64,000 nucleotides of DNA from Linyphia triangularis (lineage: Eukaryota > Arthropoda > Arachnida > Araneae > Linyphiidae), in contig CAXBTE010000018.1 in assembly GCA_963978545.1 (NCBI GenBank), positions 176,001 through 240,000 on the forward strand. Direction: 5' to 3'. This document shows positions 1 to 19,119 of the stretch, piece by piece. Made by a program: the position numbers and the translations under genes. Every line of letters begins with the position of its first letter. The stretch's first letter is position 1. The notes below the pieces were generated by a model. That model did no database searches. It worked only from the letters and a program-made list of their open reading frames with translations, and had not been told where the DNA came from.

Positions 1-434
1 ACCCAGATCAGCCCACCTCCAACAGGACCTTCATAAATACTTCATTGGCAAACCAGCTTACACCAAATGGGACAAATTTTGTTCAAACGTTGTCGAACAC
101 TAGTCCAACCATGATACCAAGTGAAGTCATTCTACCTATCTCACAAGAACGCGCCACCCCAAGTTGGAGCTCTATTGTTGCAACTCCTTGTCCGACCAAC
201 TCCATTCCACCGGATGTGCAGACTCCCACTCTCCCCCCTGCTTCCCTTTCTCAGGTGAATGAGCAACCCACCCCCTCTCTCACTAATCTCCAGAAGGCAA
301 TTGAAGAGGCCAACAAAACTGCCAACAGACTAGCTGATCTGATTCATTGGGTGCAAAACTCAAAAATAATGGAGACCTTCGAGGAAATGAAGACATCCTT
401 AATTACTCAATCTAACTTTACTGATAATGAATAA
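1..434 (+). CDS. Retrotransposon ORF1 (Gag-like), C-terminal fragment of copy 1
   Basis: The reading frame is already open at base 1 (first full codon at base 3) and ends at the TAA at 432-434. It equals the last 144 or so residues of the 703-residue ORF1 of copy 2, the Pro/Thr/Ser-rich tail after the zinc knuckles. An ATG at 45 lies inside the frame and is not a real start. The stop overlaps the ORF2 start by 8 bases (ATGAATAA). Truncation is due only to the window edge. I see no known fold in this tail. Confidence 0.9.
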   Translation, partial: PDQPTSNRTFINTSLANQLTPNGTNFVQTLSNTSPTMIPSEVILPISQERATPSWSSIVATPCPTNSIPPDVQTPTLPPASLSQVNEQPTPSLTNLQKAIEEANKTANRLADLIHWVQNSKIMETFEEMKTSLITQSNFTDNE

Positions 435-3225
435 AGTCATCAATTCCTTTTCTACTCTCATCATAACTGTATGGAACGCCAACAACGTTACAAACAAAAT
501 GGAAGAACTTAAAAACTTTCTATTTGAAAATTCTATCGACATATGCTTGGTCACTGAGACCCATGCCAAACCATGCAATTCACTTGTGATCCCTAACTAC
601 CACACATACAGATGTGACAGGATGCACCATAGAGGCGGTGGGTCTGCAATATTCGCTAAAAGATCTCTTTCCACTTCTCTATACAGATCATGTAACCAGT
701 ATGGGATGGAAGAGACAAATATTATCCTTGAGAGTTTTGGAAGATCCATATACATTTCATGCGTCTACAGCCCTCCAAGTAACAATATCACACAGCAACA
801 CCTTGATCACCTCATTCCATCCTCACATCCAACCATCCTTGGAGGAGATCTAAACGCCAAAAATTCAATTTGGGGATGTAGAACAACTAATAAAAACGGC
901 AAAACCATTGGAAATTTACTTGGCAGGGCTAGCCTGAAAGTCGTTGCGCCACTTCAACCAACATATTATCCAGTATTCAGAAACCGCTATCCGGATATCT
1001 TGGATATTATTATCACAAACACAAACATTCCCATTAGTGCTGAAGTTTTAAATGAACTCTCATCAGACCACATGCCTGTCCTTGCTACCTTAGGTAGGGA
1101 AGCACAACGTGCTGAACGCCAAGTTGCTAACACCGATTGGCAACTTTTCAATAATATTCTTACCACCTACCACTGCAGAACGTCTACTACCAGGAGTGAA
1201 AGTTGTACCTCAATGGCACGGGGAGTAACTACCTGGAGGCAGGACGCTATGGTAGAGGGTTCGAACAATCAAATTCTCACTGTAACAGACCTAGATGAAC
1301 GCATCGACTCGCTGTCTATAAAACTGAAGGAAGCTCATGAAGCTGCAACCACTTACAAACCCTTCAAACAGAACTATTTGCTCCTTCCAACTAACACCCG
1401 AAATATCATTAAATATAGGAACTATATAAGAAAGAAATGGCAGCGTACCTGGGACCCAAAATTCAAAACGCTAGTTAATGCACTGAACAAAGAAATTAAA
1501 GAGCTGACAAGGGAAAGCAGAGAATCCAGATGGAATGAAAAAGTAGTCTCCTTAGCTGCGGAGGATAACAGCCTCTGGCAGATGTCCAAAGCACTAAGAA
1601 AAGACAAGAACATTCACAGACCCCTCCAAATTGAAACTGGACTAGTCTTCACTGAATCGGATAAAGCCTCTGCATTTGCGGACTCCTTGGAACTGCAATT
1701 CCAAGAAAATGTAGAACCTACAAACGATACCTTCGAAGAGATCATCCGTAGGAGAGTCAACAACTGGACCGCATCAACACCAGTCCAGGGCTCTATCACC
1801 AAGACAGACCCTGAAGAAATTAAAATCATTATAAGAAAACTTAAAATTCACAAGGCTCCAGGAGGCGATAACATCACAAATCGAATGATTCGGAACGTAC
1901 CTGAATGCATTATCAACAATATCGTTAGTATATGCAACTCGGCTCTCCACCACGCGTACTTTCCACAAAAATGGAAAGAAGCAGTAGTCATACTCGTCCT
2001 AAAGCCAAACAAAAACCCGACCATGCCTTCAAGTTACAGACCGATCAGTCTCCTACCCTGCTTAGCCAAGGTATTCGAGAGGGTTATTCTCAACAGACTG
2101 AAACGGTATCTTTATCATATCCCTGTTGAACAGCACGGCTTCATGCCTGGCCGCTCAACGACCCACCAACTTGTCAGAATCCTGGAATTCACAGGAGAAG
2201 CATTACACAACAAACAATCAACTGCACTCCTTATGTTGGATGTTGCGAAAGCATTTGACCGGGTCTTCCACAAGGGTCTGCTTTTCAAACTAATAAATTT
2301 GGGATTCCCACACGATATTATCCATATAATCAAATCCTACCTTAAGGACAGAACATTCGAAGTCAGAGTTGGCCGCACTTTGTCAGATCCAAGACATATA
2401 AGGGCGGGCGTTCCACAGGGAAGTATTTTAGGCCCTATCCTCTACATATTTTACAACTCCGACTTCCCTGCTTTCAGAGATGATCACAACTCATTGATTG
2501 CATATTACGCTGATGACACAGCAATTGCAGTTAAGTCCATTAATCCAGAACATGCTCTTGAGAAACTGAATGACAAAATACCAGAAATTGAGGAATGGTG
2601 CGCCAAGTGGAAGGTGGCAATCAACGCTTCCAAATCTCAAATTCTTGTAATTAAGGCCAGACGTAAAAGAACTGTAACTAATACAAATGTCTACCTCTTT
2701 GGGGAGAAGATTCCTAAAGTAAAATCGGCCAAATACCTTGGACTTACAATCTCAGATAACCTAACATGGAAGAAACATATTCAAAATGTAGCAGGTAAAG
2801 CTGCGGGTGCTATGAATAAACTCAGACCACTTCTTGGGCGCCGTTCGAAACTTGGACTACACCTTAAGAAAAGACTTTACGAAACAACTATAAGACCTGT
2901 CTTCTCGTATGCATCACCAGCTTGGGTAACAGCCAACAAAACAGATATTAAACGTCTACAAACAGCTCAGAATAAGATCCTTAGAGAAATGGTTGGGGCC
3001 ACCCGCTACATTAGAAATGTCTTGATACATAAAGACCTAAAAATCGACACTGTTGAGCAATTCCTTGCAAAACAGAACATTAACTTCTATAAGAAGGCTC
3101 AAGGCGAGTCCTCCATAATTAAAGACAATATCTCTTACGAAATTCTATTGGAAGATAGGATGCATCGTCCCTTTGCTGCCTTTGCTCTCTCGGATGCTAT
3201 GCTGACAAAAGCTTTTCAATCCTAG
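427..3225 (+). CDS. Retrotransposon ORF2: AP endonuclease and reverse transcriptase, copy 1
   Basis: The 932-residue frame is intact. It encodes the enzyme that nicks the target and copies the element RNA at the nick (target-primed reverse transcription). The endonuclease spans roughly residues 12-225, with Asn17 and Asn19, Glu44 in an ETH motif, Asp141 and Asn143 in GGDLNAK, and Asp214-His215 in SDH. The reverse transcriptase spans roughly 465-760, with Asp605, a GVPQGS motif at about 661-666, and YADD at 694-697. No RNase H domain follows, as is usual for Jockey. It differs from copy 2 at four residues: Asp for Glu in the linker before the RT, Arg for Gln, Val for Glu and Thr for Ser. The catalytic residues are unchanged, so the protein is probably functional. 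It starts inside the ORF1 stop region. Confidence 0.96.
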   Translation: MNKVINSFSTLIITVWNANNVTNKMEELKNFLFENSIDICLVTETHAKPCNSLVIPNYHTYRCDRMHHRGGGSAIFAKRSLSTSLYRSCNQYGMEETNIILESFGRSIYISCVYSPPSNNITQQHLDHLIPSSHPTILGGDLNAKNSIWGCRTTNKNGKTIGNLLGRASLKVVAPLQPTYYPVFRNRYPDILDIIITNTNIPISAEVLNELSSDHMPVLATLGREAQRAERQVANTDWQLFNNILTTYHCRTSTTRSESCTSMARGVTTWRQDAMVEGSNNQILTVTDLDERIDSLSIKLKEAHEAATTYKPFKQNYLLLPTNTRNIIKYRNYIRKKWQRTWDPKFKTLVNALNKEIKELTRESRESRWNEKVVSLAAEDNSLWQMSKALRKDKNIHRPLQIETGLVFTESDKASAFADSLELQFQENVEPTNDTFEEIIRRRVNNWTASTPVQGSITKTDPEEIKIIIRKLKIHKAPGGDNITNRMIRNVPECIINNIVSICNSALHHAYFPQKWKEAVVILVLKPNKNPTMPSSYRPISLLPCLAKVFERVILNRLKRYLYHIPVEQHGFMPGRSTTHQLVRILEFTGEALHNKQSTALLMLDVAKAFDRVFHKGLLFKLINLGFPHDIIHIIKSYLKDRTFEVRVGRTLSDPRHIRAGVPQGSILGPILYIFYNSDFPAFRDDHNSLIAYYADDTAIAVKSINPEHALEKLNDKIPEIEEWCAKWKVAINASKSQILVIKARRKRTVTNTNVYLFGEKIPKVKSAKYLGLTISDNLTWKKHIQNVAGKAAGAMNKLRPLLGRRSKLGLHLKKRLYETTIRPVFSYASPAWVTANKTDIKRLQTAQNKILREMVGATRYIRNVLIHKDLKIDTVEQFLAKQNINFYKKAQGESSIIKDNISYEILLEDRMHRPFAAFALSDAMLTKAFQS

Positions 3226-3615
3226 GTGCACGCACACCTCAGGTTCTTATTATACAAACTTACTACAAACCGTCTAGTACCTTCTGTGAAAGTTGTATCG
3301 TTCTGGTACGAGTAGTAGCCTGGAGACGGAATGTAGTGAGGGAGTGTATGTACTTATTTTAGGGATTCATATCCCTATTTTTGATTTCCATATTTAATCA
3401 AGTATTAGACTTTTTTCTAGATTGTCACTCTGACAAAGTTGATGTCCTGTTCTGTCCCCGTTCTGTCCTGTTTTATGTTTTTTCTCACTTATTTTCTATG
3501 TTAACCCCGATTATACAAATTAGATAATGCCACTCGGCAACCATCAGATGTAGAGGTATACAGTCGCTTCGCGACGAACACCTTGCCAAACCTAATATTC
3601 AAGTTCAAGTTCAAG
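3226..3615 (+). other. 3' UTR and hexamer tail of retrotransposon copy 1
   Basis: This is non-coding sequence after the ORF2 stop. It contains a segment (3271-3349) that resembles a stretch inside ORF2 (1181-1259): both share CGTCTA-TACC, then GTGAAAGTTGTA, then CCTGGAG in the same order. It ends with (TTCAAG)3 rather than poly(A). The outer bases CCGTCT and AGACGG, at about 3270 and 3325, could pair, so this may be the structured RNA that the reverse transcriptase recognises. That role is inferred. Confidence 0.75.
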
Positions 3616-3622
3616 TAAAGTT

Positions 3623-3830
3623 AAGATCATACTTCATAGGATCATTTCTATAGTATGATTAGCGTGTTCACTCACCGAACATCGCAGAAAACCCAACCAC
3701 GATGATGTGAGATGGGGCTTCTGCCTGAGCGTGAAAGCGGCGAATCAACTGCTTGTCGGTTGCTTTGCCATTGATGATCGCACCTTTCTTTATTGTAAAG
3801 AGAGGATGGCAGGAACTCGATCTGAGTGGT
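3623..3830 (+). ncRNA. U3: U3 box C/D small nucleolar RNA, unit A
   Basis: U3 works in the nucleolus: in the small-subunit processome it base-pairs with pre-rRNA and is needed for early 18S-side cleavages. The 208-base gene shows all the family landmarks. The 5' end AAGATCATACT pairs with AGTATGAT (5' stem-loop). Box A is GGATCATTTCTATAGT at 3639-3654, box C' CCACGATGATG at 3697-3707, box B TGAGCGTGAAAG at 3726-3737, box C TTGATGATCG at 3771-3780 and box D TCTGAGTGGT at 3821-3830. A 10-bp stem with a TTG loop lies at 3783-3805. The exact ends are set by homology to known U3 (AAG start, GTGGT end). In this unit the promoter is replaced by retrotransposon copy 1, only 7 bp of native flank remaining, so this copy is probably not transcribed normally although its sequence is intact. 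Confidence 0.97.
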
Positions 3831-6183: not shown

Positions 6184-6647
6184 TCGGAATGAAATCGCTG
6201 TAAATATCATTTTGCTCGATTTCCCGCTCAATATTTTCCGCACTTTTAAGAAGACGCAAAAAAATAATAATAATTTCCTCTCCTCTCCTTGAAAAGGAGG
6301 ACGATCGTTTTGTCGAAGTGACGTCACGTCACATTTCGTATATTTTTTTGTGCGAAGCGAAGTGAGTTAAATAAAATAGTTTGAAGAAGAAAAACTTGAA
6401 CCGTGATCGTGATCCAAATTTTCAAAGCGCATCAGATCAGATTTCGAATTGTTTTTAATACATGAACGTGATTATAATGGATTGTTATTTAAAATGACCT
6501 AATCCGGCTTCCGATGTGGAAAAGCCATGCAAGAAGAGGACAAATAATCAAAGATTTCGAGATTTTTAAGCATTTAAAAAAGATTTGACGAGCATTTAAA
6601 AAGGATATTTCCGTTCGGACATGCGAAATCGCGATGTCTTATTAAAT

Positions 6648-6842
6648 TAAAGCTTGGCGTCCACTAGAGTTAAACAGTGCAGAGCAGAGCGGAGTGGATT
6701 CGAGCCAAATTACAAGTCTGTCAACGTCCATTGTAGCACGAGCCTCCTGCTACAGTAGACGTTGGCAGCCTTGTAATTGGCTCTTGTCCACTCCGCTCTG
6801 CAATGCTCTGCACTGTTCAACTATAGTGGACGCCAAGCTTTA
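6648..6842. mobile_element. 195-bp foldback (MITE-like) element
   Basis: The two halves are near-perfect inverted repeats. The left arm starts TAAAGCTTGGCGTCCACTA and the right arm ends with its complement TAGTGGACGCCAAGCTTTA. Arms of roughly 90 bases with a few mismatches and small indels meet near 6745. It has no coding capacity. It looks like a non-autonomous DNA transposon that was in the unit before the array spread. Copies start at +3025 in each unit: 11422, 21937, 26713, 31489, 36265, 41040, 45813, 50587, 55364 and 60139. I cannot fix a target duplication or superfamily. Confidence 0.75.
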
Positions 6843-7032
6843 GAGTAATGTTTTTTGTAATTTACCTGTTGCCAATTCGTTTTTAAAAGACAGATTTATA
6901 TTTAAAATTAAATATCACAGGAATTCATTAAAAATCCCGGATTATATCCGATTTAAAAAAAAAATAAAAACTTAGGTAGGTTGTGAAAAGTTCTTAACAT
7001 TCATTATATCAATTTTACAGTATTATAAATTT

Positions 7033-13112: not shown

Positions 13113-13121
13113 ACCACCACT
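13113..13121 (+). promoter_or_regulatory. Displaced U3 PSE, now upstream of retrotransposon copy 2
   Basis: ACCACCACT stands 60 bases before the former U3 start (13173). The TATA-like stretch and start site are also kept up to 13175, and the element begins at 13176. Transcription from the U3 start would therefore enter the element after only three U3 bases. Use of this promoter by the element is an inference. Confidence 0.6.
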
Positions 13122-13159
13122 ACATTATTTTTAGTACAAATACATAAAAGCACGGGAAA

Positions 13160-13175
13160 TGCTGCTAAAGTTAAG
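13160..13175 (+). repeat. Target-site duplication, 5' copy
   Basis: TGCTGCTAAAGTTAAG, 16 bp, is repeated exactly at 18899-18914. The empty site in other units reads GGGAAA, this 16-mer, then ATCATA. The duplication covers U3 positions -13 to +3. Confidence 0.95.
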
Positions 13176-13611
13176 GAAGAGGAGCTTCATGCGAAAATTT
13201 AATATGATGATTAGAAGTCGGGTAGAAATCTGATTGAAAGATTCAAGGGGAACTATCGACAAGTTTTTCAAGTTAAGCCTAGTTTTAGGCTTAATTATTC
13301 CAACCACTTGGAATATTGGAGTTAACCCTACTTCTGCCACGTGCCTGAATTCCTGATTGGACTGTACGGACAATTCTTACGTAAGATAATTCTCCTCTCT
13401 ATCTTTGCAGGGTTTTGTTTTTATTGAGATTCCGGTATTGCATCCCGGCCAAAGGGCGGCATTGTTTGTCCCTAGTTGGAACAATACCAGTTACTCAAAT
13501 TCCTGGAGCGGGCGGCACTTTTCAGTGTTGGTCAGCGTAAGGGTTTTGAGTGGCTTCTTTCTCTCAATTTGATTCTCATTTTTGTAGATTTTATTTCTAA
13601 CTTTTGCTATC
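13176..13611 (+). other. 5' UTR of retrotransposon copy 2
   Basis: 436 bp lie before ORF1. They contain two adjacent perfect hairpins: TTAAGCCTA / TAGGCTTAA with loop GTTT (13273-13294) and ATTCCAA / TTGGAAT with loop CCAC (13297-13314). A pyrimidine-rich stretch ending TTTGCAG follows (13391-13410). Jockey elements normally carry an internal promoter here, but I cannot point to one with confidence. Confidence 0.7.
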
Positions 13612-15723
13612 ATGGCGTCTGAGCAGAACAAACTCCACCTCATCGAGAATTTAGTCGGACAATTACTTAAGCTTTTGACTGATATTGCTCCAAGCATTAG
13701 TGATCCTAATATTAAATCTGAGTTATTGTTTGGAACTAAAACACTTTCCGATATGACGACTGACATTTTTGGTCCAAACCAAGGCGATGTATTAGGCACA
13801 AAACCCTGCCTAATCACGACGACACTTTTAAATTTATCTGGTAATGACAACGTCAAATCATATGATATTGTCTCTAGCAACCCGCTTATTATATGTGAGG
13901 ATAGCGATGCTAGCTTGGATTTGGAGACTACATCTCTTACCAATTGCACTCCATTGGTATCCAACAAGACAATTGAAACAATTTCAACTGTTGAGACGGC
14001 GTCTACTTCGAAGGAAGTTCTAACACAGAGGAAACATCCCAACCAGATTTTTAACAATAGAAATGTTGTTACCCCTTCTAGAGAGATTGTTAGCAAGCTC
14101 TCTGTTCTCCCAAATTCATCAGCAGAAACAGTCAATACCTGTTTGACTAATACTGATATTGACACCTCAGATGACTCAGTACAAGACAACTTGAATTGCA
14201 GTCACCGTTTTCTTAGAAACAAAAAACGTTTGTTTACTCCAGACGAGTTTAAATCAAAAATAAAAAGTAATAAACAGAAAAAGGCATCTGTGGCGGCATT
14301 ACGTACAGCCGAAGTAAACGATTGCACCTTCCCAAATCTTTCAATCATGGGTCCTACTATCCAAACCAAATCTACAGGTCCCGACCAACCAGCATTAAAT
14401 GAAGCTAGTTACACACTCCATTCTCAAGAACATGACTGCAATGTAGCTCAGTCAATAAACACTACTCCGTTGCCTGTTTCAAACACTGACACAACTACCA
14501 CTGGAGAAATTAACCAAACAGAAGAAGTTGAAGACAATGAGGGCTTTGTCCTGGTCACCAACCGCACTAAAACTACTCCCATTATTGTCAATGACGCTAA
14601 CACAAACTGGAAGAGCATCAATTCCATGCTAAGAGAAAATGGATTCGTCGGATACGTTGGTAAAACCACTGGCAAAAATTCCTTTAACATCAAATCTAGG
14701 GATGAGGCTCAACAGAGAGCTATTACCAAACTACTGGATGAACTTAAAATTGAGTACCATTCCTTCACTCTCCCATCTGACAAAGTTCTTAAAGCAGTTA
14801 TCAAATCCCTCCCTGCCGACACTGAAGTCGCAGACATCATTGAAGATCTTATCTGCCAAGGTTTTACACCCATCAGGGTAGATCAACTTTCAAAAAGATC
14901 CGAGGGTGATAAAATCCTACTTCCACTCTTCTTAGTTACCCTTGCAAGAGGGGAACATAACAGAAAAATACATAACCTAACTCACCTTCTTAACTTGAAG
15001 ATCTCCGTAGAGGGATACAAGGGCAGGAAGGGTATTTCTCAATGTCATAATTGTCAAGCCTTCCTTCACGCTGCATCATCTTGCAGACGCTCACCCAAAT
15101 GCGTTAAATGTGCTGGTCCTCATCTAAGCTCTGTTTGCACAAAAACCAGAGATGTCACCCCCACTTGCGCTAACTGCTTAGGTCCTCACACGGCAAACTA
15201 TTCAGGTTGCCCTAAAAGACCCCCTTTCAATCCCCCTGCAATCAGGCAAAGGCCGGAGGAACACCAAAACACCCAGCCACCTACACGTAACCCAGATCAG
15301 CCCACCTCCAACAGGACCTTCATAAATACTTCATTGGCAAACCAGCTTACACCAAATGGGACAAATTTTGTTCAAACGTTGTCGAACACTAGTCCAACCA
15401 TGATACCAAGTGAAGTCATTCTACCTATCTCACAAGAACGCGCCACCCCAAGTTGGAGCTCTATTGTTGCAACTCCTTGTCCGACCAACTCCATTCCACC
15501 GGATGTGCAGACTCCCACTCTCCCCCCTGCTTCCCTTTCTCAGGTGAATGAGCAACCCACCCCCTCTCTCACTAATCTCCAGAAGGCAATTGAAGAGGCC
15601 AACAAAACTGCCAACAGACTAGCTGATCTGATTCATTGGGTGCAAAACTCAAAAATAATGGAGACCTTCGAGGAAATGAAGACATCCTTAATTACTCAAT
15701 CTAACTTTACTGATAATGAATAA
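13612..15723 (+). CDS. Retrotransposon ORF1, Gag-like nucleic-acid-binding protein, copy 2
   Basis: This 703-residue protein should bind the element RNA and form the ribonucleoprotein particle. The first ~320 residues are Ser/Thr/Asn-rich and look disordered, with a short basic stretch near 200-225 (RNKKRLF, KQKK). Residues ~330-398 could be an RRM-like fold. Residues ~395-455, starting at the LPADTEV segment, match the PRE_C2HC region that precedes knuckles in Jockey Gags. Three CCHC knuckles follow: C478-x2-C-x4-H-x4-C491, C497-x2-C-x3-H-x4-C509 and C519-x2-C-x3-H-x6-C533. The tail is Pro/Thr-rich. The start at 13612 has a good context (A at -3, G at +4). The stop overlaps the ORF2 start by 8 bases, suggesting reinitiation. 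It is intact, with no frameshift. Confidence 0.95.
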   Translation: MASEQNKLHLIENLVGQLLKLLTDIAPSISDPNIKSELLFGTKTLSDMTTDIFGPNQGDVLGTKPCLITTTLLNLSGNDNVKSYDIVSSNPLIICEDSDASLDLETTSLTNCTPLVSNKTIETISTVETASTSKEVLTQRKHPNQIFNNRNVVTPSREIVSKLSVLPNSSAETVNTCLTNTDIDTSDDSVQDNLNCSHRFLRNKKRLFTPDEFKSKIKSNKQKKASVAALRTAEVNDCTFPNLSIMGPTIQTKSTGPDQPALNEASYTLHSQEHDCNVAQSINTTPLPVSNTDTTTTGEINQTEEVEDNEGFVLVTNRTKTTPIIVNDANTNWKSINSMLRENGFVGYVGKTTGKNSFNIKSRDEAQQRAITKLLDELKIEYHSFTLPSDKVLKAVIKSLPADTEVADIIEDLICQGFTPIRVDQLSKRSEGDKILLPLFLVTLARGEHNRKIHNLTHLLNLKISVEGYKGRKGISQCHNCQAFLHAASSCRRSPKCVKCAGPHLSSVCTKTRDVTPTCANCLGPHTANYSGCPKRPPFNPPAIRQRPEEHQNTQPPTRNPDQPTSNRTFINTSLANQLTPNGTNFVQTLSNTSPTMIPSEVILPISQERATPSWSSIVATPCPTNSIPPDVQTPTLPPASLSQVNEQPTPSLTNLQKAIEEANKTANRLADLIHWVQNSKIMETFEEMKTSLITQSNFTDNE

Positions 15724-18514
15724 AGTCATCAATTCCTTTTCTACTCTCATCATAACTGTATGGAACGCCAACAACGTTACAAACAAAATGGAAGAACTTA
15801 AAAACTTTCTATTTGAAAATTCTATCGACATATGCTTGGTCACTGAGACCCATGCCAAACCATGCAATTCACTTGTGATCCCTAACTACCACACATACAG
15901 ATGTGACAGGATGCACCATAGAGGCGGTGGGTCTGCAATATTCGCTAAAAGATCTCTTTCCACTTCTCTATACAGATCATGTAACCAGTATGGGATGGAA
16001 GAGACAAATATTATCCTTGAGAGTTTTGGAAGATCCATATACATTTCATGCGTCTACAGCCCTCCAAGTAACAATATCACACAGCAACACCTTGATCACC
16101 TCATTCCATCCTCACATCCAACCATCCTTGGAGGAGATCTAAACGCCAAAAATTCAATTTGGGGATGTAGAACAACTAATAAAAACGGCAAAACCATTGG
16201 AAATTTACTTGGCAGGGCTAGCCTGAAAGTCGTTGCGCCACTTCAACCAACATATTATCCAGTATTCAGAAACCGCTATCCGGATATCTTGGATATTATT
16301 ATCACAAACACAAACATTCCCATTAGTGCTGAAGTTTTAAATGAACTCTCATCAGACCACATGCCTGTCCTTGCTACCTTAGGTAGGGAAGCACAACGTG
16401 CTGAACGCCAAGTTGCTAACACCGATTGGCAACTTTTCAATAATATTCTTACCACCTACCACTGCAGAACGTCTACTACCAGGAGTGAAAGTTGTACCTC
16501 AATGGCACGGGGAGTAACTACCTGGAGGCAGGACGCTATGGTAGAGGGTTCGAACAATCAAATTCTCACTGTAACAGACCTAGATGAACGCATCGACTCG
16601 CTGTCTATAAAACTGAAGGAAGCTCATGAAGCTGCAACAACTTACAAACCCTTCAAACAGAACTATTTGCTCCTTCCAACTAACACCCGAAATATCATTA
16701 AATATAGGAACTATATAAGAAAGAAATGGCAGCGTACCTGGGACCCAAAATTCAAAACGCTAGTTAATGCACTGAACAAAGAAATTAAAGAGCTGACAAG
16801 GGAAAGCAGAGAATCCAGATGGAATGAAAAAGTAGTCTCCTTAGCTGCGGAGGATAACAGCCTCTGGCAGATGTCCAAAGCACTAAGAAAAGACAAGAAC
16901 ATTCACAGACCCCTCCAAATTGAAACTGGACTAGTCTTCACTGAATCCGATAAAGCCTCTGCATTTGCGGAATCCTTGGAACTGCAATTCCAAGAAAATG
17001 TAGAACCTACAAACGATACCTTCGAAGAGATCATCCGTAGGAGAGTCAACAACTGGACCGCATCAACACCAGTCCAGGGCTCTATCACCAAGACAGACCC
17101 TGAAGAAATTAAAATCATTATAAGAAAACTTAAAATTCACAAGGCTCCAGGAGGCGATAACATCACAAATCGAATGATTCGGAACGTACCTGAATGCATT
17201 ATCAACAATATCGTTAGTATATGCAACTCGGCTCTCCACCACGCGTACTTTCCACAAAAATGGAAAGAAGCAGTAGTCATACTCGTCCTAAAGCCAAACA
17301 AAAACCCGACCATGCCTTCAAGTTACAGACCGATCAGTCTCCTACCCTGCTTAGCCAAGGTATTCGAGAGGGTTATTCTCAACAGACTGAAACAGTATCT
17401 TTATCATATCCCTGTTGAACAGCACGGCTTCATGCCTGGCCGCTCAACGACCCACCAACTTGTCAGAATCCTGGAATTCACAGGAGAAGCATTACACAAC
17501 AAACAATCAACTGCACTCCTTATGTTGGATGTTGCGAAAGCATTTGACCGGGTCTTCCACAAGGGTCTGCTTTTCAAACTAATAAATTTGGGATTCCCAC
17601 ACGATATTATCCATATAATCAAATCCTACCTTAAGGACAGAACATTCGAAGTCAGAGTTGGCCGCACTTTGTCAGATCCAAGACATATAAGGGCGGGCGT
17701 TCCACAGGGAAGTATTTTAGGCCCTATCCTCTACATATTTTACAACTCCGACTTCCCTGCTTTCAGAGATGATCACAACTCATTGATTGCATATTACGCT
17801 GATGACACAGCAATTGCAGTTAAGTCCATTAATCCAGAACATGCTCTTGAGAAACTGAATGACAAAATACCAGAAATTGAGGAATGGTGCGCCAAGTGGA
17901 AGGTGGCAATCAACGCTTCCAAATCTCAAATTCTTGAAATTAAGGCCAGACGTAAAAGAACTGTAACTAATACAAATGTCTACCTCTTTGGGGAGAAGAT
18001 TCCTAAAGTAAAATCGGCCAAATACCTTGGACTTACAATCTCAGATAACCTAACATGGAAGAAACATATTCAAAATGTAGCAGGTAAAGCTGCGGGTGCT
18101 ATGAATAAACTCAGACCACTTCTTGGGCGCCGTTCGAAACTTGGACTACACCTTAAGAAAAGACTTTACGAAACAACTATAAGACCTGTCTTCTCGTATG
18201 CATCACCAGCTTGGGTAACAGCCAACAAATCAGATATTAAACGTCTACAAACAGCTCAGAATAAGATCCTTAGAGAAATGGTTGGGGCCACCCGCTACAT
18301 TAGAAATGTCTTGATCCATAAAGACCTAAAAATCGACACTGTTGAGCAATTCCTTGCAAAACAGAACATTAACTTCTATAAGAAGGCTCAAGGCGAGTCC
18401 TCCATAATTAAAGACAATATCTCTTACGAAATTCTATTGGAAGATAGGATGCATCGTCCCTTTGCTGCCTTTGCTCTCTCGGATGCTATGCTGACAAAAG
18501 CTTTTCAATCCTAG
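15716..18514 (+). CDS. Retrotransposon ORF2: AP endonuclease and reverse transcriptase, copy 2
   Basis: 932 residues, intact. The N-terminal endonuclease (about 12-225) keeps Asn17, Asn19, Glu44, Asp141, Asn143, Asp214 and His215, so it should nick DNA. Residues ~225-460 are a linker. Bases 16470-16548, coding for part of it, resemble the 3' UTR. The reverse transcriptase (about 465-760) shows KAPGGDNI at about 475, SYRPISLLP, HGFMPGRST, LDVAKAFD with Asp605, GVPQGSILGP at about 661, and YADD at 694-697. Most Jockey relatives have FADD there. The C-terminal part has the YETTIRPVFSYASPAW and LQTAQNKILREM segments typical of the clade, and there is no RNase H. It starts inside the ORF1 stop (ATGAATAA), in a different frame. 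The endonuclease is the likely source of the choice of U3 site. Confidence 0.97.
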   Translation: MNKVINSFSTLIITVWNANNVTNKMEELKNFLFENSIDICLVTETHAKPCNSLVIPNYHTYRCDRMHHRGGGSAIFAKRSLSTSLYRSCNQYGMEETNIILESFGRSIYISCVYSPPSNNITQQHLDHLIPSSHPTILGGDLNAKNSIWGCRTTNKNGKTIGNLLGRASLKVVAPLQPTYYPVFRNRYPDILDIIITNTNIPISAEVLNELSSDHMPVLATLGREAQRAERQVANTDWQLFNNILTTYHCRTSTTRSESCTSMARGVTTWRQDAMVEGSNNQILTVTDLDERIDSLSIKLKEAHEAATTYKPFKQNYLLLPTNTRNIIKYRNYIRKKWQRTWDPKFKTLVNALNKEIKELTRESRESRWNEKVVSLAAEDNSLWQMSKALRKDKNIHRPLQIETGLVFTESDKASAFAESLELQFQENVEPTNDTFEEIIRRRVNNWTASTPVQGSITKTDPEEIKIIIRKLKIHKAPGGDNITNRMIRNVPECIINNIVSICNSALHHAYFPQKWKEAVVILVLKPNKNPTMPSSYRPISLLPCLAKVFERVILNRLKQYLYHIPVEQHGFMPGRSTTHQLVRILEFTGEALHNKQSTALLMLDVAKAFDRVFHKGLLFKLINLGFPHDIIHIIKSYLKDRTFEVRVGRTLSDPRHIRAGVPQGSILGPILYIFYNSDFPAFRDDHNSLIAYYADDTAIAVKSINPEHALEKLNDKIPEIEEWCAKWKVAINASKSQILEIKARRKRTVTNTNVYLFGEKIPKVKSAKYLGLTISDNLTWKKHIQNVAGKAAGAMNKLRPLLGRRSKLGLHLKKRLYETTIRPVFSYASPAWVTANKSDIKRLQTAQNKILREMVGATRYIRNVLIHKDLKIDTVEQFLAKQNINFYKKAQGESSIIKDNISYEILLEDRMHRPFAAFALSDAMLTKAFQS

Positions 18515-18898
18515 GTGCACGCACACCTCAGGTTCTTATTATACAAACTTACTACAAACCGTCTAGTACCTTCTGTGAAAGTTGTATCGTTCTGGTACGA
18601 GTAGTAGCCTGGAGACGGAATGTAGTGAGGGAGTGTATGTACTTATTTTAGGGATTCATATCCCTATTTTTGCTTTCCATATTTAATCAAGTATTAGACT
18701 TTTTTCTAGATTGTCACTCTGACAAAGTTGATGTCCTGTTCTGTCCCCGTTCTGTCCTGTTTTATGTTTTTTCTCACTTCTTTTCTATGTTAACCCCGAT
18801 TATACAAATTAGATAATGCCACTCGGCAACCATCAGATGTAGAGGTATACAGTCGCTTCGCGACGAACACCTTGCCAAACCTAATATTCAAGTTCAAG
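18515..18898 (+). other. 3' UTR and hexamer tail of retrotransposon copy 2
   Basis: It contains the ORF2-like segment at 18560-18638 (CGTCTAGTACC, GTGAAAGTTGTA, CCTGGAG). It ends in (TTCAAG)2 at 18887-18898, directly against the target duplication. Two substitutions separate it from copy 1 (TTGC for TTGA near 18672; CTTC for CTTA near 18780). Confidence 0.8.
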
Positions 18899-18914
18899 TG
18901 CTGCTAAAGTTAAG
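18899..18914 (+). repeat. Target-site duplication, 3' copy
   Basis: Exact match to 13160-13175. Its last three bases are the first three of the U3 in unit C, so this U3 is complete. Confidence 0.95.
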
Positions 18915-19119
18915 ATCATACTTCATAGGATCATTTCTATAGTATGATTAGCGTGTTCACTCACCGAACATCGCAGAAAACCCAACCACGATGATGTGAG
19001 ATGGGGCTTCTGCCTGAGCGTGAAAGCGGCGAATCAACTGCTTGTCGGTTGCTTTGCCATTGATGATCGCACCTTTCTTTATTGTAAAGAGAGGATGGCA
19101 GGAACTCGATCTGAGTGGT
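18912..19119 (+). ncRNA. U3: U3 snoRNA, unit C (promoter displaced)
   Basis: The gene body is complete and of the common sequence. Only the 13 bp of target duplication separate it from the retrotransposon, so the PSE and TATA-like motifs are 5.7 kb away. It is probably silent, or made only as read-through RNA. Confidence 0.96.

Follow-up and report, generated by a model that had tools for sequence, protein, structure and literature searches.

Target-specific non-long-terminal-repeat retrotransposons (long interspersed nuclear elements, LINEs) each enter, to our knowledge, one fixed sequence. R1, TRAS and SART each have a single target sequence, in 28S rDNA or in telomeric repeats, and the Drosophila telomeric elements belong with the Jockey-clade LINEs. 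Ty3, a long-terminal-repeat element, and Dictyostelium TRE5, which inserts upstream of tRNA genes, are placed by transcription factors at a fixed distance from the starts of small-RNA genes, both at genes of RNA polymerase III. For small nuclear RNA (snRNA) genes, excerpts of a 2015 paper name only Keno and Utopia (both at U2), Dada-U1 and Dada-U6, and describe Tx1 and R1 as clades of target-specific elements with an apurinic/apyrimidinic (AP)-type endonuclease (PMC4640811). Among open-licence PubMed Central (PMC) papers, we found no retrotransposon that targets U3, U4 or U5 or is guided to the proximal sequence element; one study reportedly concerns SNAP50 binding to a promoter inside trypanosomatid elements (PMC8190864). 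Here we describe a Jockey-like LINE in a 64-kb stretch of the Linyphia triangularis genome (the window; C31:176001–240000), the final 64 kb of a 240-kb contig that carries a tandem array of U3 and U4 genes. The element has inserted repeatedly at the starts of U3, U4 and U5 genes, and what it follows is likely the snRNA-type promoter, with a motif near -60 and a TATA-like box at about -30, or the complex formed at the start, rather than the U3 sequence.

Two copies lie in the window in the same sense at U3 starts (1–3615 and 13176–18898; the element and U3 features given here for the window are on the forward strand), as the original prediction had stated. By sequence comparison the second, copy 2, is a complete element of 5,723 bp. 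It is bounded by an exact 16-bp target duplication, TGCTGCTAAAGTTAAG, also correctly predicted: the left one (13160–13175) ends at U3 +3, and the right one (18899–18914) consists of the 13 nt 5' of U3 plus U3 +1 to +3, counted from the Rfam start at 18912. The left flank retains the upstream region of the occupied U3 promoter, including ACCACT at -57 (13116–13121), a putative proximal sequence element, and CATAAAAG at -30 (13143–13150), a putative TATA-like box, and the U3 body (18912–19119 by Rfam) is now separated from it. We infer that this U3 gene is no longer expressed and that copy 2 draws its transcription from the captured U3 promoter. Copy 1 enters the window as its 3' part (1–3615), extends upstream to C31:173925 and is followed by a U3 gene at 3623–3830 (Rfam). 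The two 3' junctions differ, as had been noted: (TTCAAG)3-TAAAGTT in copy 1 vs. (TTCAAG)2-TGCTGCTAAAGTT in copy 2, whose tail occupies 18887–18898.

The rest of the array had been described as free of copies. This holds within the window but not on the contig, where a third copy (copy 0) lies upstream at C31:~163447–169138; copy 1 is complete when read upstream. Copies 0 and 1 differ at one position in 5,670 bp, and their junctions are identical, as is an additional A in the flank upstream: they are duplicates of one insertion. Outside the leader, copy 2 differs from them at 17–18 of 5,662 bases (0.30–0.32%; 17 substitutions against copy 0). This exceeds the divergence of all 55 pairs of array units (maximum 0.23%; complete units in the window differ by 0 to 11 substitutions per pair), although the test is weak alone, with p = 0.16 when the most divergent pair of units is the reference and 0.0003 when the mean is. 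The biggest differences are at both extremities, in the 3' junction and in the 5' leader ahead of the common body, which is 60 nt long in copy 2 (13176–13235), 21 nt in copies 0 and 1, and variable among genomic copies. Because leader and 3' junction differ, we read copy 2 and copies 0/1, from their sequences, as two separate insertion events at one U3 site. Spread of a single insertion by unequal exchange, which the original prediction had kept open, is thus what happened to copies 0 and 1 and is rejected for copy 2. All three copies have an uninterrupted second open reading frame (ORF2) of 932 aa. In copies 0 and 1, ORF1 is broken close to its beginning, with the first stop at codon 138. Nine substitutions separate copies 1 and 2 in the 3.6 kb compared, seven of them in ORF2, of which four change amino acids; the nine include five A/C changes and one transition (1350–3491 against 16639–18780). 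Of 39 U3 starts found and read on C31, three are occupied, and the other 36 hold no insertion and keep an intact target (10 inside the window, 8 and 18 beyond it).

A census in 1.349 Gb of genome, by exact match to a 33-mer from the 3' end, returned 49 copies: 18 on contig C10, 14 on C12, six on C344, four on C245, three each on C31 and C4, and one on C8. A DNA search with the 3' end brought up 227 candidates, 40 of them scored, and the genome may hold additional copies, perhaps diverged ones, besides these 49. We read the 3' flank of every one of the 49 (three on C31, seven at loci and 39 in stretches of 190–191 bases). Seventeen copies, on five contigs, lie in sense at the start of a small-RNA gene identified by Rfam: seven at U3 (three on C31, three on C245, one on C12), one at U4 (C245) and nine at U5 (three on C4, six on C344). 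By chance, 0.0003 of 49 would be expected, assuming 500 such genes with a 30-base window each. A U3-specific retrotransposon, as originally proposed, would explain four different U3 insertions, including an independent junction outside the array, of the kind suggested as support, at 9.3 Mb of the 92-Mb contig C12. Repeated use of U3 as a target therefore stands, but the explanation as a whole is scarcely tenable, given that U5 copies outnumber U3 copies, one 3' junction is at U4 and 32 copies lie elsewhere. Targeting of U3 only is rejected by the U5 and U4 junctions, and strict U3 specificity fails because most copies lie outside Rfam RNA genes, an outcome that the original prediction had itself named as telling against it.

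The 3' junctions fall into two classes, 7–8 and 13 nt upstream of the RNA, and both classes are found in U3 and in U5. The spacer from element to RNA start is TAAAGTT, TTAAAGTT or TGCTGCTAAAGTT at U3, TTCTCGTT at U4, and TTAAAGGC, TTCACTTAAAGGC or TTAACTTAAATGC at U5, where the last two may represent one event with later base changes. Each copy ends in one to three TTCAAG units, often followed by T or TT, which could be a partial unit. Apart from the C31 copies, 5' flanks were sought at 20 places, namely 14 snRNA copies and six others. A 5' junction was visible in 10 of the 14 (three on C4, one on C12, three on C245 and three on C344); the other four (L282, L286, L287 and L288) showed none, owing to a shorter copy or to a stretch that did not include it. 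Where the 5' junction could be read at U3 or U5, it lies at about +3: after AAG (+1 to +3) at U3, and after AT, ATG or ATGC at U5, depending on how bases common to target and leader are assigned. The duplications at U3 are 10 or 16 bp.

Judged by 3' junction and 5' leader, there are four U3 events (copies 0 and 1 with their C245 counterparts; copy 2; C12:9.32 Mb; C245:155.6 kb) and at least four U5 events (C4; C344:353k with 385k; C344:370k; C344:247k with 255k). Because these junctions and leaders are distinct, the sequences imply at least eight insertion events at U3 and U5 starts, U4 excluded. Near-random insertion, with the copies in snRNA arrays being a few events tolerated there and spread by unequal exchange, would be in keeping with the duplicate copies 0 and 1, with the C4 copies, which share both junctions, and with the 32 of 49 copies elsewhere. 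It is nevertheless very improbable: a single site shows unlike leaders and 3' junctions, the insertions span three gene families, the C12 copy lies outside the C31 and C245 arrays, and no fewer than eight separate events at gene starts are hard to reconcile with it.

ACCACT is found at -57 in U3, at -57 or -58 in U5 (-58 by the Rfam start) and at -55 in U4, and a TATA-like box is present in U3 and U5, while U4 has no box by that pattern. Among the 32 copies without an Rfam RNA at the 3' flank, we fetched the 5' flanks of six, picked after the 3' flanks and before any 5' flank beyond C31 was known, and five of the six showed a junction. By eye, the target duplications at these five sites are 8, 9, 11, 12 and 19 bp. 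Counting the final target base ahead of the element as +3, ACCACT occurs at three of the five sites (-57, -58 and -62) and, with one mismatch, at a fourth (-59); CACCACT with at most one mismatch is found at four, a TATA-like box (-33 to -25) at four, and both at three. In 20 stretches of the same genome (200 kb, both strands, 55,559 windows), the background rates are 0.41% for ACCACT, 2.0% for CACCACT with one mismatch and 5.4% for the box, and both motifs occur in 36 of 55,559 windows. The corresponding binomial probabilities are 7e-7, 8e-7, 4e-5 and 3e-9, all of which are too small by an undefined factor, since the patterns were written post hoc. A fixed distance and common motifs in unlike genes, as expected of promoter guidance, were found at U3, at U5, at the U4 junction and, for each motif, at four of the five other sites, a small sample. 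Because most of the few sites without an Rfam RNA but with a readable 5' junction have the motifs of U3 and U5, the target is probably the start of an snRNA-type promoter and not the U3 sequence, with the promoter or its complex presumably being what is recognized; a specificity for snRNA-type gene starts fits better than one for U3. We infer that many of the insertion sites without an Rfam RNA are themselves promoters of snRNA type. Between U3 and U4, ungapped similarity of the upstream regions is no better than in shuffled sequences (13 of 18, with at least 13 in 30 of 300 shuffles), and the exact 9-mer ACCACCACT fared better (27 of 2,000 resamples).

The upstream sequences also bear on two other explanations. 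The endonuclease might recognize a short sequence common to U3 and U5 at the cut, of the type GGAAAT..C..C.TAAAG, with the promoter being irrelevant, and GGAAA and TAAAG do lie upstream of the start in both genes. We consider this unlikely, since TAAAG is absent at the cut of U4 (TCTCGTT) and of the five other read sites, where the upstream motifs recur, and since other bases than these lie at the -13 cuts of both U3 and U5. Alternatively, the element could target TATA-type promoter starts generally, the -60 motif being incidental, which would account for the box near -30 in U3, U5 and four of the five other sites. Yet that pattern is frequent in the background, ACCACT, present at three of the five, is far rarer there, and U4 has ACCACT without a box, so that a general TATA preference appears quite improbable.

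Several observations weigh against guidance by snRNA-type promoters. The copies do not uniformly occupy one kind of site: the share at annotated small-RNA starts, 17 of 49, falls short of near-exclusive targeting, and 32 copies (18 on C10, 13 on C12, one on C8) have no Rfam RNA at the 3' flank; one flank outside U3, U4 and U5 has a mir-184 match under the gathering score. Only five of these 32 have a read 5' junction and 27 do not, and the motif patterns applied to them were defined after the flanks had been viewed. The site at C12:16760k has no -60 motif, that at C12:3795k fails the TATA pattern, and U3 and U5 also have TAAAG in common at the cut. U4 as a target comes from a single 3' junction, because the 5' flank of that copy (C245, 275.7–281.4 kb) is U3; the intervening unit is missing, and the copy is a recombinant or a deletion. 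Copies on C245 are spaced 10,477 bp apart vs. 10,478 on C31, and C245 may be another allele of C31 or a sister array. Some U5 copies are duplicates. By Rfam, none of the 49 3' flanks is at U1 or U6, nor at U2, with the numbers of these genes in the genome uncounted.

Animal snRNA promoters contain a proximal sequence element bound by SNAPc, and the initiation bubble extends from about -11 to +3. LINE endonucleases nick the bottom strand, and reverse transcription is primed at the nick. Template-strand cuts at -7/-8 or -13, with the other strand cut at about +3, would suggest that the element acts on promoter DNA around initiation. We propose that its endonuclease could nick the template strand in or beside DNA melted at initiation, that the nick would prime reverse transcription of the (TTCAAG)n-tailed RNA, and that a second-strand cut near +3 would then yield the 10- or 16-bp duplications at U3. 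The new copy would come to lie under the captured promoter, and its next transcript would begin about three bases 5' of the element. The variable 5' leaders could, as a guess, stem from transcripts begun at different captured promoters. In the case of SART1, it has been proposed that the 3' end of the RNA pairs with the target over a few matching bases to allow priming (PMC7265360).

A bolder possibility, which we put forward only tentatively, is that this LINE reads promoters: it would home to a SNAPc/TBP-like initiation complex and enter the melted start, and its seemingly unrelated insertions would mark unrecognized snRNA-type units clustered on two chromosomes. SNAPc-driven piRNA loci are clustered in nematodes, which we offer as a parallel to the clustering on C10 and C12. 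These two contigs, which hold 31 of the 32 copies outside U3, U4 and U5, belong to a set of 13 large contigs, and it would be a guess to call them sex chromosomes or to invoke a clustered promoter class. On C10, two copies (L266 and L268) lie immediately 5' of a stretch that by eye is tRNA-like and resembles a short interspersed nuclear element, with no Rfam match. If guidance by snRNA-type promoters is correct, the element would be a promoter-guided LINE using the starts of several snRNA families, a counterpart of Ty3 at snRNA-type genes, and a testable system for the steering of a LINE endonuclease by the transcription machinery. Every insertion would mark a transcription start, and a LINE could own a promoter without carrying one.

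How does the element compare with known systems? Relative to Ty3 and TRE5, the present case involves snRNA genes and a Jockey-like LINE. R1, TRAS and SART share with it an AP-type endonuclease with site preference, and its modelled endonuclease resembles those of TRAS1 and R1, but their single-sequence targets set them apart; for SART1, the use of one sequence is described in excerpts of PMC7265360. Utopia and Keno likewise insert into arrayed snRNA genes (PMC4640811). However, they use one fixed U2 site, whereas the present element uses U3, U4 and U5 starts. The Utopia endonuclease is restriction-like, and that of the present element is AP-type, like that of Keno. The Dada elements also hit several multicopy small-RNA families (U1, U6, tRNA, 5S; PMC8869645), but they are DNA transposons with separate lineages per gene that act via sequence similarity.

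The nearest named homologues of ORF2 (932 aa; 15716–18514) are X or BS proteins, chiefly from spiders and insects, with 31–39% identity in the aligned parts (the 39% match spans only 28% of the query), and the closest relatives are unnamed proteins with 53–54% identity. Pfam detects an AP-type endonuclease and a reverse transcriptase in ORF2 and no RNase H. In a quick tree built with no reference set, the element falls in a supported group with the unnamed relatives P0001–P0013, among X/BS-named proteins and apart from those bearing RNase H. The Jockey-clade membership originally claimed is supported as a Jockey-like placement, by named homologues and domain make-up rather than by a reference-clade tree. 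ORF1 (703 aa; 13612–15723) has a weak PRE_C2HC match (20 bits, below the Pfam cut-off of 22.1) and CCHC knuckles judged by eye, and no ORF1 homologue was found at E 0.001. An ORF1 with a tentative PRE_C2HC-like stretch and an ORF2 without RNase H by Pfam recall the Jockey-clade LINEs X, BS and Jockey; in contrast to these, the present element ends in (TTCAAG)n with no poly(A) tail and targets snRNA gene starts. Neither AATAAA nor ATTAAA occurs in its 3' untranslated region (UTR).

A predicted ORF2 structure (mean predicted local distance difference test score of 82, from a 16-sequence alignment) is similar to human L1 ORF2p and to the endonucleases of L1, TRAS1 and R1. At 16444–16548, a stretch of ORF2 that carries an in-frame insert absent from 15 aligned relatives resembles the element's own 3' UTR (18537–18631; score 65, vs. 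37 for the best of 200 shuffles), and the model has low confidence at residues 251–280. Collections of viral and genome contigs contained only distant relatives, with 22–34% identity in the best segments. The 5' end of the element gave no match to a hepatitis delta virus (HDV)-like ribozyme and folds somewhat better than expected (z -2.65); folding of the 3' end is not unusual (z 0.22). A downstream promoter element is matched only if the start is moved to 13178.

The array itself, whose unit of ~4.775 kb agrees with the 4.78 kb first reported, comprises 11 whole units and part of a twelfth in the window, with 12 U3 and 12 U4 genes by Rfam. U3 and U4 are joined within one tandem unit and lie on one strand. 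A U3 15-mer occurs in 83 stretches among viral contigs. Three other long insertions were found in the C31 array, none at a U3 start. Two lie inside units, and one of these matches a transposase domain. The third, of 5.9 kb (C31:~131220–137173), has inverted ends that finish in CAAGCAAC and GTTGCTTGGG, and adjoins ACCACCACT roughly 60 bases upstream of a U3 start, beside the -60 motif. Finally, an imperfect inverted repeat at 6641–6849, with arms of 63 nt that are 83% complementary, resembles a miniature inverted-repeat transposable element; by eye it is also present in other units, and a related piece lies on contig C1 (80% over 121 bp).

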